Positions 7,003 to 11,754 of a stretch of DNA of 38,798 bases are shown in pieces. A program made the translations under genes and the position numbers. The stretch's first letter is position 1, and each line of letters starts with the position of its first letter. The notes beneath the pieces are model-generated. The model did no database searches. It was not told the DNA's origin and saw only the letters and a program-made list of their open reading frames with translations. The stretch is from a virus, in IMG/VR virus record IMGVR_UViG_3300042922_000556, positions 1 to 38,798 of that record. One strand, given 5' to 3'.

Positions 7003-7314
7003 ATGGCAAGTTATCGTCAAAGAATTACGATACAGAAACAGCATAAAGAGCTATTTATAAAACGGGATCCATTTACAAAAACAAAAAAAAATTATCGCTC
7101 TGAGACAAAGATATATATCACAAAAGCCATATCAATGTATAAGACAGCAGCGGCTTCTTTCGAGCCACTTTCAGACGAAGAGAAGATATGTAGAGATGAG
7201 ATATTAAAGTATACGATTGACCTTGAGATACTTGAACGGGGTACATACGAGGAGAGCAGGGAGGTGATTAAAAAATATGGAGGAATTATCGGTAAAACAA
7301 TACACGAAGGCTGA
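7003..7314 (+). CDS. Hypothetical protein
   Basis: A 103-aa, strongly basic N-terminal half (RQRITIQKQHKELFIKRD) and helical C-terminal half. It has a GGTGAA ribosome site ahead of ATG 7003 and overlaps the DUF927 gene by 38 bases, which suggests coupling. No family recognised; a helicase accessory role is a guess from position. Confidence 0.6.
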   Translation: MASYRQRITIQKQHKELFIKRDPFTKTKKNYRSETKIYITKAISMYKTAAASFEPLSDEEKICRDEILKYTIDLEILERGTYEESREVIKKYGGIIGKTIHEG

Positions 7315-9103
7315 TTTCAACACCGAAGAACCATACCGGGTATTGTTTTCCTTAAGAAATAATCGTTTTAAATACAACCAGGTATTCACCATATTAAAAG
7401 AGAATGCTTCCAGTGTCGGATTCAAGGATTTCGGCAGAATGCTTAAATCATATGCGGAGGAGCAAGCTGGTAAAGGAGTAATCATTGATAATGTTACTCA
7501 ATTTGATGGCCAGTTGATAGAATTAAAGACCGGTGAATGGTTGGCTGATGATTTCGCGGTTACCAGAAGAAATGAGCGTAATGGCGAGGATATCGCTTGC
7601 GTTCATCCTATCATGCCGGTGGAGTGTTTAAGTAATATCGATACCGGTACAGAAAAACTTCGGATTGCATTTAAAAAAGGTAAGTTCTGGAGAAACGAAA
7701 TTTATGAAAGACGTACGATTGCAAGTGCTAATAATATCCTTGAACTAGCCAATAATGGAGTAGCTGTTACCTCAGAAAATTCAAAATACTTGGTCCGATA
7801 CCTCCACGATATAGAGAACCTCAACTACGATGTTATCCCTCAACACAACTCAGTGGGTCGACTTGGTTGGACAAACAAGGGAGAATTTAGTCCCTATGTA
7901 GAGGATTTGATTTTTGATGGAAATAATGATTTTGAAAATATATATAAATCCATCAGATCCGAAGGAAGTTTTGATGAATGGCTCAAGGTTGCAAAGGAAG
8001 TGCGAGCAAGTGGTTCACCTTCCAAGATAATGCTGGCTGCAAGCTTTGCAAGCGTACTTCTTAAAATTCTTGGAAAGTTAAATTTTATAGTCCATTTCTG
8101 GGGAGGTTCAGAGGTTGGAAAATCTGTTTCGCAGATGCTTGCCATTTCGATATGGGCGGATCCTGGTGAAGAAGCTTATTTTCAAACATTCAACGGCACA
8201 CAGGTCGGAACTGAGTTATTAGCTGGATTTGTAAATAGTATGCCACTTGTTCTAGATGAATTTCAGTTAGTCAAAGATAAAAAAACGTTTGAAACTATCG
8301 TATATATGCTCTGTGAAGGCACTGGACGTATCAGAGGAAAGAAAACGGGAGGAATTCAAAAAACGCCAACATGGAAAAACTGTATTCTTACATCTGGAGA
8401 AGGTCCCATAACGAATAGTGCTTCTGGTGGCGGAGCGGTAAACCGAATTATTGAAATTGAATGTAAGGACAAACTGTTTATAGATATTCCTGCTGTTGCG
8501 GATATCGTCAGAAAGAATTATGGGCATGCCGGAAAAATATACATTATGCTATTGCGTAATGAGGCGGCAAAAGAAGAAGCCGAGAGGCTTTACAAGGAAT
8601 TTTATCATTCCTTTGGATCTGATGCGACCGAAAAACAATCAATGGCCGCAGCTGCTATTTTAACCGCTGATGCATTAGCTACAAAGTGGATATTTTGCGA
8701 TAATCATGCACTTAAGGTGGAGGATATTGAGAAGTATTTAAGTACAAAGGAGTCAATCGATACGAATTTGAGAGCATATGAATACTTTAGGGATATGATT
8801 ACCGCAAATCATTATAAGTTCGCTGCAAAAGGGAACATGCCCGTAGGGGAATGTTGGGGCAGTATATCCGGAGGAAAAATCAATGTTCTCAAGAGCATGT
8901 TTGAAAAGATATGCAGTGATGGAGGTTATGATTCCAAGGCTTTGTCTAGCTGGATGAAACAAAATGGATTTACGGAATCAGCAGCTGATCGCGCGTTTAA
9001 AAGTGTAAGTATAAACGGAATGAAAGCATGGTGCGTCAGTCTTAAAGAAGATGAAGCTGCATTTGAGCCGGTTAATCAACATAAAGTACCGTTTAAAACA
9101 TGA
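7277..9103 (+). CDS. DUF927-family replicative helicase-like ATPase
   Basis: A 608-aa protein. The DUF927 core shows SVGRLGW near residue 191, then Walker A GGSEVGKS at about 276-283 and Walker B PLVLDEFQ at about 322-329, followed by an arginine-containing sensor region (GGGAVNRIIEIE near 380). The N-terminal 140 residues and C-terminal helical part look like accessory domains. DUF927 proteins are superfamily III-type helicases found in phages and integrative elements. No primase motif is evident in the N-terminus. The iteron array begins right after its stop, which fits an origin-specific replication helicase. Confidence 0.85.
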   Translation: MEELSVKQYTKADFNTEEPYRVLFSLRNNRFKYNQVFTILKENASSVGFKDFGRMLKSYAEEQAGKGVIIDNVTQFDGQLIELKTGEWLADDFAVTRRNERNGEDIACVHPIMPVECLSNIDTGTEKLRIAFKKGKFWRNEIYERRTIASANNILELANNGVAVTSENSKYLVRYLHDIENLNYDVIPQHNSVGRLGWTNKGEFSPYVEDLIFDGNNDFENIYKSIRSEGSFDEWLKVAKEVRASGSPSKIMLAASFASVLLKILGKLNFIVHFWGGSEVGKSVSQMLAISIWADPGEEAYFQTFNGTQVGTELLAGFVNSMPLVLDEFQLVKDKKTFETIVYMLCEGTGRIRGKKTGGIQKTPTWKNCILTSGEGPITNSASGGGAVNRIIEIECKDKLFIDIPAVADIVRKNYGHAGKIYIMLLRNEAAKEEAERLYKEFYHSFGSDATEKQSMAAAAILTADALATKWIFCDNHALKVEDIEKYLSTKESIDTNLRAYEYFRDMITANHYKFAAKGNMPVGECWGSISGGKINVLKSMFEKICSDGGYDSKALSSWMKQNGFTESAADRAFKSVSINGMKAWCVSLKEDEAAFEPVNQHKVPFKT

Positions 9104-9366
9104 GGTAACCGAAAAGTACCGTTGTATTTCAAATTACGGTTACTGATAAAAGCTAGTAAAATCAATGGGTTGAGCCTTGCGGTAACCGTTTCACCGCGGT
9201 AACCGTGAAAAATATCAATCCCATATACATTAAATTAATAGAATAATTTTCTATACGCGCGTAAAAAATAACGGTTACTACGGTTACCGTACCAGTTTTG
9301 CCTTATAAATCAAGGCTTTGACGGTTGCCAAGCCAACGGTTACCGTACGGTTACCACGGTTACTGT
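9104..9366. repeat. Iteron array around an AT-rich core, candidate replication origin
   Basis: Ten copies of ACGGTTACC or close variants. Forward: 9136, 9271, 9280, 9321, 9336, 9347, 9356. Reverse (GGTAACCGT): 9104, 9181, 9198. The 9-bp core CGGTWACCG is itself a palindrome with a central W. The three rightmost copies start 9-11 bases apart, near one helical turn. Reverse copies lie left and forward copies right of an AT-rich stretch (9207-9270) that holds the palindrome TACGCGCGTA (9254-9263). A small hairpin (GCCTT/AAGGC, 9300-9316) sits in the right arm. No gene fits here. Behind a replicative helicase this most resembles an iteron origin; an operator array for the next operon is the alternative. 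Confidence 0.7.
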
Positions 9367-9382
9367 AAGGAGGTGCTTCATC

Positions 9383-9598
9383 ATGCCGGATAATGAGCGA
9401 GTCAGGCTAATATTTAAAGATACTTATAACTTTTATCTTAAGTGGAAGGATATTTCTAATCCGGAAGATTGGGTTATCCTGATGAAGGAAATGAAAGAGA
9501 TAGATCATCGGTATGATTGCGACCTATGCCGGCAGATACTTCTGGAGCTGGTTAAGGTGATTGAGAATGAGTTTAAAAGCAGGGAGGGAGTCAAGTGA
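9383..9598 (+). CDS. Hypothetical protein
   Basis: A 71-aa helical protein with an excellent AAGGAGGTG ribosome site. It has aromatic residues YNFYLKWKDIS and one CxxC (CDLC near residue 48), and ends four bases inside the next gene (GTGA overlap). It is the first gene after the iteron array. No family recognised, although similar short proteins are common in clostridial phages. Confidence 0.65.
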   Translation: MPDNERVRLIFKDTYNFYLKWKDISNPEDWVILMKEMKEIDHRYDCDLCRQILLELVKVIENEFKSREGVK

Positions 9599-11754
9599 GC
9601 GAGGAATTACAGGAGTTAATGGATAATAATCCGGAATGGTATAAAGATATTCTCCTGGTCGATGCGAAGGAGTTCATCCGAGCAAATATCAATTCGGCAT
9701 CCAGGAGTTTTGTAGCGATAGGATATTATCTCAAGTATATCCGGGATAATCAAATGTTTACCAAAGATGGGTACCAGAATATTTGGGAATTTGCTCAATC
9801 AGAGTTTGGTATTAGTAAATCATCTGCTAGTCGCTTTATAAATATCAATGATCGGTTTAGTAAAGATGGGAACTCTCCTATTCTTCTGGAACAGTATAAG
9901 GATTTCAACAGCAGTAAATTGTCCGAGATGTTAACCATGACAGATGAACAGATTGAGCAAGTAACTATTACAACAACGGTTGCTGAGATAAGAGAAATTA
10001 AGCAGCCGATTAAGGATGAAGTTGTTGCGACGTCGCAACAGGAACCGCAAAAAGAGATAGAACCACGAATTAGAAATGCAATAATCAGAGCCTACATTGA
10101 CGGATTTACCGACTGGAAAAAGAACAGCATTCGAATGGAATTTGCTTCCTCGAAAAGATTAGAGGACCGTATTGATTATCTAAAATCTTGCGTTGCATTT
10201 GGAAATACGTATTTAACTATTGAGGGTGAAGAGAAAAAGCTGTATCTGAGAAAATCCAGCGATGAAGAGCTTGAATTATCAGACTTTAATAACAGCTTTA
10301 TAGAATTTGCCCCAGGAATAACAAAATTTACTTTCACTTACGGTGAGATGGCTGGCATTGCCGATGGAATGCTGTATGGGTTAAAAACCGAACCGGAATC
10401 AGAAGAAGTAAAACTAATTGACGATCTCGATTTTACCGTCAGAACCTACAACTGTTTGAAGCGTGCCGGAGTCGATACGGTTGACAATCTATGTGAGCTA
10501 ACCGAAATCGAAGTAGAAATGATCCGTAACATTTCTCGGAAATGCGTCGATGAAATCAAGCTGAAATTATCCGAGATTGGTATGAAGCTGAAGACAGATA
10601 TCCCTGAAATTGTGAACGATATCGCTGGAATTGTGGATAATGAGCCTGAAATCGAGAATGATGTGGATGAAACCGAGGCTATGATAGAAGATGGATACTA
10701 TGACAAGTTGGCAGCATACTGGTGTCGAAGGGAAATGACGGTTGAGCTTTATGAATTGGCCAAGAGCCAAGAAGATGAAGACATTGATGTATTCAATCGA
10801 TATTTCAAAGAAAGATATGTCCATGAGTGCATAGCACCATCTTATAATCTTTCGAGATATGAAATTTCATTCGTGACCGATATGGATGGAATAAGTTTTA
10901 ACGATGCTGAAAAAACGAGATATTCATGGCAGCTACTAATTGATTTGGTATGCCAAGAAGCCGAGAATGAAACACCTGCATCAAAACCTACCAATCTTCA
11001 TGAAAATGATGAAGGACTTAAGAGACTTAGAGAAATCAGAAGAGAATTGAAAAGCGGAAAAAGGGTAACGAAATCTGTTGAAACCATACCGGAATACATA
11101 GGAACCGTTAGTGAAGTGGCTGAAAGTGTTATTGAAGAGCCAGAAACTATTACTGAACAGTTTGAAACTGTAGAAGCCGATATCATACAGATGGTACCGG
11201 AGACAGACGAGGATGAAGACGAGCCTGAGATAGTAGATCCGGAGTATTATACATACCAAGATGTTGATACCGAAATTGATAAGTTAATGGAATATCTTGA
11301 AGCGTTTCGCAAGAATAATGATACAGTGCCAGGAAGAAGAAAGGCGAAGATGCGCTTTGATGCAATCTGCCTTCTCAGCAAGGAAATGCAAAAACCTCCG
11401 GTAATCGAAGAGCCTGAACCAATACAACCGGAGTTGCCAATCCTGAAGAATAATGACCAGCGTAAAGATTGGGCTGATAATTATAGAGCCTGGAATGAAT
11501 GGTATTACGATGATCATATCGATTGTCATTATTACAAATATGACTTTCCTAACGGTGACAGACTTGTAGTTGATGAGTATAGGGATAGGGAACTTTATTG
11601 GAAGGCTGGGAAACATGATGAACAGCATTATCATCTGTTAAGAAAAGAAAAGTTAGCTTACGGAGATAGACGTACATACGAGGAAAGATACTCACATCAG
11701 ACTTCAAGCATGACAGAAATAGTTGATTATCTGAAAGATCTTCAGAAGAAATGA
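9595..11754 (+). CDS. Large phage protein with an RNA polymerase alpha-CTD-like domain
   Basis: 719 aa from GTG 9595. The N-terminus (residues about 25-120, with SRSFVAIGYYLKYIRD and FGISKSSASRFI) looks like an HTH/ParB-associated DNA-binding domain. Residues about 272-338 closely follow the bacterial RNA polymerase alpha C-terminal domain: DDLDFTVRTYNCLKRAGVDT, then the helix-hairpin-helix region RNISRKCVDEIKLKLSEIG. After that come acidic linkers (PETDEDEDEPEIVDPE) and a C-terminal domain rich in Trp and Tyr (residues about 620-719). Alpha-CTD binds UP-element DNA and activators, so the protein may redirect host polymerase or use the fold for DNA binding. It is placed directly after the origin-like array. 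Confidence 0.75.
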   Translation: MSEELQELMDNNPEWYKDILLVDAKEFIRANINSASRSFVAIGYYLKYIRDNQMFTKDGYQNIWEFAQSEFGISKSSASRFININDRFSKDGNSPILLEQYKDFNSSKLSEMLTMTDEQIEQVTITTTVAEIREIKQPIKDEVVATSQQEPQKEIEPRIRNAIIRAYIDGFTDWKKNSIRMEFASSKRLEDRIDYLKSCVAFGNTYLTIEGEEKKLYLRKSSDEELELSDFNNSFIEFAPGITKFTFTYGEMAGIADGMLYGLKTEPESEEVKLIDDLDFTVRTYNCLKRAGVDTVDNLCELTEIEVEMIRNISRKCVDEIKLKLSEIGMKLKTDIPEIVNDIAGIVDNEPEIENDVDETEAMIEDGYYDKLAAYWCRREMTVELYELAKSQEDEDIDVFNRYFKERYVHECIAPSYNLSRYEISFVTDMDGISFNDAEKTRYSWQLLIDLVCQEAENETPASKPTNLHENDEGLKRLREIRRELKSGKRVTKSVETIPEYIGTVSEVAESVIEEPETITEQFETVEADIIQMVPETDEDEDEPEIVDPEYYTYQDVDTEIDKLMEYLEAFRKNNDTVPGRRKAKMRFDAICLLSKEMQKPPVIEEPEPIQPELPILKNNDQRKDWADNYRAWNEWYYDDHIDCHYYKYDFPNGDRLVVDEYRDRELYWKAGKHDEQHYHLLRKEKLAYGDRRTYEERYSHQTSSMTEIVDYLKDLQKK

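Follow-up and report, generated by a model that had tools for sequence, protein, structure and literature searches.

A predicted RNA polymerase α-CTD as an optional cassette in a putative ParB-like phage protein

The C-terminal domain of the RNA polymerase α subunit (α-CTD) is where the polymerase recognizes UP elements and responds to many activators. In E. coli numbering, which is used for the family as well, the UP-element contact set in RpoA is R265, N268, C269, G296, K298, S299 and E302, and residues 259 and 261 are sigma-facing. In B. subtilis, α-CTD contacts lie at Y263 for Spx and at C265 and K267 for ComA (PMC2801614). Three further papers describe KorB as a ParB-type clamp repressing transcription (PMC11790492), survey phage ParB-type proteins with extra domains and name a sigma-70 fusion among the bacterial ones (PMC12704722), and define polyvalent phage proteins as long polypeptides that each carry several conflict-related, often enzymatic, domains (PMC5512222). 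The main text of the ParB survey mentions no α-CTD fusion and does not contain the words "RNA polymerase".

Here we describe a 719-residue protein encoded in a 38,798-base virus record (the window, meaning the whole stretch that was analysed), whose genes include those for a terminase, portal, tape measure and endolysin. The protein is not described by title or abstract in the literature searched, which covered few subscription papers. The reading frame proposed in the first-pass annotation is real, and the HTH-like N-terminus, long acidic linkers and Trp/Tyr-rich (conserved) end that had been ascribed to its product are all present. The features of this region are the following.

7277-9103, plus strand: DUF927/Cch-like primase-helicase with a Cch HTH domain, directly upstream of the 719-residue gene (Pfam, PHROG)
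about 9104-9376, no strand assigned: array of CGGTTAC repeats in the gap that separates the helicase gene from the 719-residue gene
9595-11754, plus strand: open reading frame of 719 residues with a GTG start; ParB-like N-terminus, α-CTD cassette, mosaic middle and conserved C-terminal part
9625-10014, plus strand: all-helical N-terminal domain (residues 11-140), resembling in the model the parS-binding HTH domain of ParB/Spo0J/SopB
10402-10575, plus strand: RNA polymerase α-CTD domain (residues 270-327, Pfam PF03118); the modelled domain extends to about residue 334 (10596)
10663-11151, plus strand: middle with exchangeable modules and with acidic linkers (about residues 357-519, from alignments); about 372-510 recurs in the relative L005
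11152-11751, plus strand: conserved C-terminal part (residues 520-719) with linker motif VEADIIQ and motif QPELPILKNNDQR (alignments, motif count)
11425-11463, plus strand: motif QPELPILKNNDQR (residues 611-623), within the conserved C-terminal part

The protein shares with the α-CTD of RpoA its profile, predicted fold, R265, N268, C269, K298 and E302, acidic residues in positions 259 and 261, and the Gram-positive tyrosine. Unlike RpoA it has no α N-terminal domain, the α-CTD is embedded in a phage protein, and intact copies have Ser or Ala for G296 and Cys for S299. Its predicted N-terminal fold resembles the DNA-binding domain of ParB, Spo0J, SopB and KorB, and the relative L108 is a ParB beside parA with the same tail, but the window protein lacks the ParB_N CTPase domain and any detectable sequence kinship to these proteins. 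Other non-RpoA proteins of Lachnospiraceae and of phages likewise have PF03118 outside RpoA, though those inspected have neither the ParB-like N-terminus of this family nor its C-terminal part. PHROG 15077, whose function is unnamed, matches the protein at E 4.3e-100 in two stretches, the C-terminal one better, and has 546 profile positions against the 719 residues here. No enzymatic domain at or above the Pfam cut-off was found in the Pfam scan of the protein. The overall confidence of an AlphaFold2 model built from 16 sequences is low (mean pLDDT 60, pTM 0.28), and the acidic linkers at residues 140-270 and 336-440 are mostly below a pLDDT of 50.

An α-CTD-like domain had been proposed at 10411-10613, coordinates that are accurate and correspond to residues 273-340, and both the profile and the model bear the proposal out. 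PF03118 (RNA_pol_A_CTD) matches residues 270-327 with an E of 7.6e-18 and 64.5 bits (cut-off 23.8) in the Pfam scan; the sole other Pfam row is DUF2894 at E 0.13, and no rival helix-hairpin-helix family appears up to E 1. In a phmmer search against PDB chain sequences, 46 of the 49 distinct sequences up to E 10 are RNA polymerase α subunits, and the best match to the protein is a Gram-positive (B. subtilis-type) α-CTD at E 6.4e-15. The domain is modelled at a pLDDT of about 85-94 within the full AlphaFold2 model, and the top Foldseek matches to residues 270-334 are all α-CTDs (3gfk_B, E 4.2e-5). VIA-align superimposes the modelled domain on an α-CTD with Z 12.2 and rmsd 1.6 over 65 residues and ranks helix-hairpin-helix rows from Rad51/Dmc1 lower (Z 8.4-8.8), so that the α-CTD fold is favoured over its rival. 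For helical domains the tool cautions that Z values below about 13 are weak, and this applies to the comparisons of both domains of the protein. NCBIfam RpoA models score only 43-64 bits against cut-offs of 228-523, only the C-terminal domain of RpoA being matched, and a PF03118 search of the whole virus record returned this single copy. Residues 270-334 are confirmed, by profile and predicted fold, as a genuine α-CTD, and neither outcome that the first-pass annotation had named as refuting it (no α-CTD match ranking above other helix-hairpin-helix proteins, or a different fold) was observed.

The N-terminal domain was modelled as all-helical with a pLDDT of 90 and pTM of 0.78. Five of its nine VIA-align rows are DNA-binding domains of ParB, Spo0J or SopB (ParB 7o0n Z 7.7, Spo0J 4umk 7.3, Spo0J 1vz0 6.9, ParB 6t1f 5.7 and SopB 5.0), and with the full model ParB 6t1f aligns at Z 8.8 over 105 residues, within residues 17-139; all of these are weak by the same limit of about 13. 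Foldseek with this domain found no significant match (best E 5.1), hhalign against L108 gave a probability of 0.3%, a Pfam scan of 23 members assigned the domain to no family, and a PDB hmmsearch returned chance rows only. NCBIfam produced a weak row to a Borrelia partition family at E 0.0064, below its cut-off. Descent of the domain from ParB at the sequence level was rejected on the hhalign, Pfam and hmmsearch results, and because all sequence-profile tests were negative the link to ParB is one of structure and architecture only. The ParB_N CTPase domain (PF02195) is absent from the Pfam rows of the protein up to E 1, and no parA was found among the window ORFs scanned, which are part of all its ORFs.

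The architectural side of this link comes from L108, whose N-terminus matches PF02195 ParB_N at 26.5 bits (cut-off 26.3) and TIGR00180 at E 7.9e-9, the latter below its cut-off, and is followed by the same middle module, α-CTD and C-terminal part as in the phage family. The adjoining gene encodes a ParA-type ATPase (AAA_31, E 5.7e-47). L108:2306-5037 can be described as a parA-parB pair with a phage-family tail, and a Lin1244/Phg_2220_C-type protein adjoins it. The N-terminal domain of the window protein is likely to be a ParB-type DNA-binding domain, going by its modelled fold and by the architecture of L108.

Relatives were collected from viral-contig scans with the whole protein, the N-terminal part and the C-terminal part and from scans of genome contigs; a viral-contig scan with A2 and a single-sequence scan of genome contigs gave little yield. 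They include Lachnospiraceae MAGs, a Lachnoclostridium MAG, an Oscillospiraceae MAG and one complete genome, that of Anaerocolumna sp. MB42-C2 (L036), where one frameshift lies near the N-terminus. The family belongs to phages and prophages with Lachnospiraceae-type hosts; its N-terminal domain and C-terminal part are conserved, and its middle is a mosaic. The C-terminal motif, written as Q-x-x-(L/M)-x-(I/L/V/M/F)-x-(K/R)-N-N, occurs in 15 of the 20 proteins scanned and looks like QLxLPL, the beta-clamp binding motif of Hda. The closest relative, L001, matches the window protein at 79% identity in both the N-terminal 140 and the C-terminal 200 residues and has no α-CTD; its middle is made of other, Cys-rich modules with no Pfam match. 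Cys-rich modules recur in the exchangeable middle of L001, L006, L010 and L035 and are probably metal-binding.

The α-CTD is found in nine family members, and close relatives are without it. Carriers of the cassette include the window, L004, L007 (with near-copies L008, L012, L013 and L033), L010 (decayed), L011, L020, L034 and L036, and both the position of the domain in the chain and its flanking modules vary among L004, L007, L011, L020, L034 and L036. On an N-terminal tree of 23 rows, seven of them with the cassette (L036 was omitted for its frameshift, L108 for its other N-terminus, L022 as a near-copy and L025 as truncated), the α-CTD label needs 6 changes, and strongly supported (starred) branches force at least 4. 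Shuffled labels needed a mean of 6.2 changes, and 273 of 500 shuffles were as low as the observed 6; label changes are no fewer than shuffled, and therefore the cassette has been exchanged freely. In these sequences the α-CTD is one of several optional middle cassettes. The L028 prophage encodes a family protein without the cassette and, two genes downstream, a separate α-CTD gene. This gene (L028:6520-6873) encodes 117 residues that include Cys motifs and an α-CTD, as though the fusion had been split in two.

We also looked at α-CTDs outside RpoA more widely. PF03118 matches were present in 286 of the 299 genomes of the family of G004, and 42 genomes besides G004 had at least two (counted by eye from the table of 299); some of the extra matches come from a second RpoA-like gene, as in G016, G184 and G266. 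A search with the phage profile covered the 42 genomes, chosen for their two or more PF03118 matches, and found one further member of the protein family, L108 in G170; G004 was the one genome inspected among the remaining 257. The other loci inspected (n = 19) have the α-CTD in AAA+ proteins, roughly 900-residue proteins that also contain sigma-70 region 4, sigma-like proteins, other large proteins and small proteins; L120, a weak match in an Mfd-like protein that is probably due to chance, was dropped before counting. Lachnospiraceae proteins that join an AAA+ ATPase to an α-CTD are L109 and L111, according to Pfam, and, judged by eye, L110 and L112; proteins of about 900 residues with one or two α-CTDs occur there too (L114-L118), and in L114 and L117 Pfam identifies sigma-70 region 4. 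Sigma-70 region 4 and an α-CTD are combined in L127, L136, L138, L139 and L141. Four of these are single phage chains (L136:3386-4435, L138:3338-4201, L139:3290-4255 and L141:3290-4249), uniting two promoter-recognition parts of polymerase in one phage polypeptide, and L138, L139 and L141 carry a Cro/C1-type HTH besides. Small α-CTD proteins were seen in L121, L122, L133, L140 and L143, the last three in phages. The 16 phage records include short ones, which may be fragments of host rpoA. Non-RpoA α-CTDs are not rare in Clostridia and their phages, and their fusions there (to sigma region 4, to AAA+ and in small Cys-containing proteins) suggest that the domain is a general DNA-binding module.

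The contact residues of the cassette are partly those of RpoA. The window α-CTD retains five of the seven UP-element contacts (R265, N268, C269, K298 and E302) and has Ser for G296 and Cys for S299. Across the nine family members, with L010 included in the residue counts (it was omitted from profile A6), N268 is conserved in all and R265, C269, K298 and E302 in eight, the exception being L010, a decayed copy with R265 changed to Ser and its later helix altered. Position 296 is Ser in seven, Ala in one and Gly in one (L010), and position 299 is Cys in eight, Ser299 being replaced in all intact copies. All seven contact residues are invariant in 65 RpoA loci, some of which are one gene counted twice. 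Residues 259 and 261 are Asp in all nine members. The window domain also retains the equivalents of B. subtilis Y263, C265 and K267; the Spx-contact Tyr is kept in eight of nine members, and the Cys and Lys of its helix likewise. The DNA face of the α-CTD is altered in a shared way across all intact copies. The suggestion in the first-pass annotation that the protein might bind UP elements stands in so far as the α-CTD is genuine and most DNA contacts are kept, but RpoA-like binding is not assured, because the changes at G296 and S299 are common to the family. Since these two positions are DNA-contact positions in RpoA, DNA binding may be weak or of other specificity.

With regard to origin, the window α-CTD is 49% identical to the nearest of the 16 RpoA domains compared. 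Recent theft from a host rpoA was considered and is not favoured: the eight intact copies have 49-58% identity to the nearest of the 16 and 64-83% to the nearest family copy. For L010 these values are 33% and 40%, and an α-CTD tree, built on some 60 columns, has poor resolution.

The 719-residue protein is most likely a ParB-like DNA-binding regulator or replicon-maintenance protein with the α-CTD as a portable DNA clamp. More closely stated, it would be a DNA-binding protein of the phage that has the build of a ParB accessory factor or regulator and uses the α-CTD as its second DNA clamp, a reading with about an even chance of being right. From its predicted fold, and from the replacement of this domain by ParB_N in L108 beside parA, the ParB-type N-terminal HTH would find a site on phage DNA. 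Flexible acidic linkers would carry the α-CTD, which, as the conserved residues suggest, could grip the minor groove of nearby A/T-rich DNA through Arg265 and its neighbours, and the conserved C-terminal part would do the job common to the family. We infer that both the N-terminal domain and the α-CTD bind DNA; the α-CTD is therefore most likely a portable second clamp that adds affinity or reach, while its contact with host sigma or activators is no more than possible.

It is possible, though unlikely, that the protein mimics a polymerase subunit, with its N-terminal domain on phage DNA and the α-CTD presented to host sigma region 4 or activators so that polymerase is recruited to phage promoters. 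The Asp residues at 259 and 261, the Spx-contact Tyr and the Cys and Lys of the same helix are conserved as this would predict, and phages of the same collection fuse an α-CTD to sigma-70 region 4 (the four chains above). However, residue conservation does not single out a protein contact, because the fold and DNA binding use the same residues, and a promoter scan around the gene found 4 promoter-like sites against 9.8 expected from shuffles, none of which stood out. A bolder version, in which Lachnospiraceae phages use a swappable α-CTD to imitate the α arm of polymerase and dock host sigma or activators, giving a built-in UP element or activator tuned by cassette swapping, is in our view rather doubtful.

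The same contact residues, together with the optional presence of the α-CTD between near relatives, as expected of a host-facing accessory, could also fit a decoy that soaks up host activators (e.g., of the Spx type) or UP elements and lowers host transcription, and the small α-CTD proteins in other phages (L133, L140 and L143) and the separate gene in the L028 prophage are in keeping with it. We nevertheless consider such a sponge improbable for the window protein, where embedding in a large DNA-binding protein, as opposed to a small abundant one, would be a poor fit.

The gene had been described as encoded right after an origin-like array, and its position holds: nine CGGTTAC motifs, six on one strand and three on the other, lie between the helicase gene and the 719-residue gene. 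The array itself follows the helicase encoded upstream, L011 and L034 excepted. The window, L001 and L036 form a CGGTTAC group with helicases 80-89% identical, and L005, L007 and L020 a GTGTTAC group with helicases 77-87% identical to one another; between the groups helicase identity is 34-36%. A replication or initiation factor that binds the CGGTTAC repeats lying upstream of the gene encoding it would suit a gene placed directly after helicase and array, and would be helped by L011 and L034, whose helicases are 72-77% identical to those of the CGGTTAC group and whose gaps have no CGGTTAC; because of these two, the array is not tied to the helicase without exception. Against it, the motif otherwise switches with the helicase group while the N-terminal domain of the family protein in L007, a GTGTTAC member, stays 83% identical to that of the window. 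Array binding was for this reason rejected as the main reading and has little probability, and the CGGTTAC array is best read as the putative origin of the helicase.

That the α-CTD is an inert hitch-hiker, kept without function in a recombination-prone middle, is the least probable reading: the decayed L010 copy and the many relatives without an α-CTD would agree with it, but dN/dS is 0.08-0.25 in the 10 of 21 copy pairs with unsaturated dS, the other 11 pairs, saturated at synonymous sites, have a pN of only 0.11-0.28, and 25 of 67 positions are invariant across seven copies. The cassette, by these measures, is under purifying selection.

In these results the α-CTD behaves as a mobile module that has been grafted onto a phage protein of ParB-like type and is gained or lost between close relatives. 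The window and L001 encode near-identical proteins with and without the cassette, so a clean comparison is possible. Should the α-CTD have kept its binding to A/T-rich DNA or to host sigma, these phages would have a route for coupling replicon maintenance with control of host transcription.
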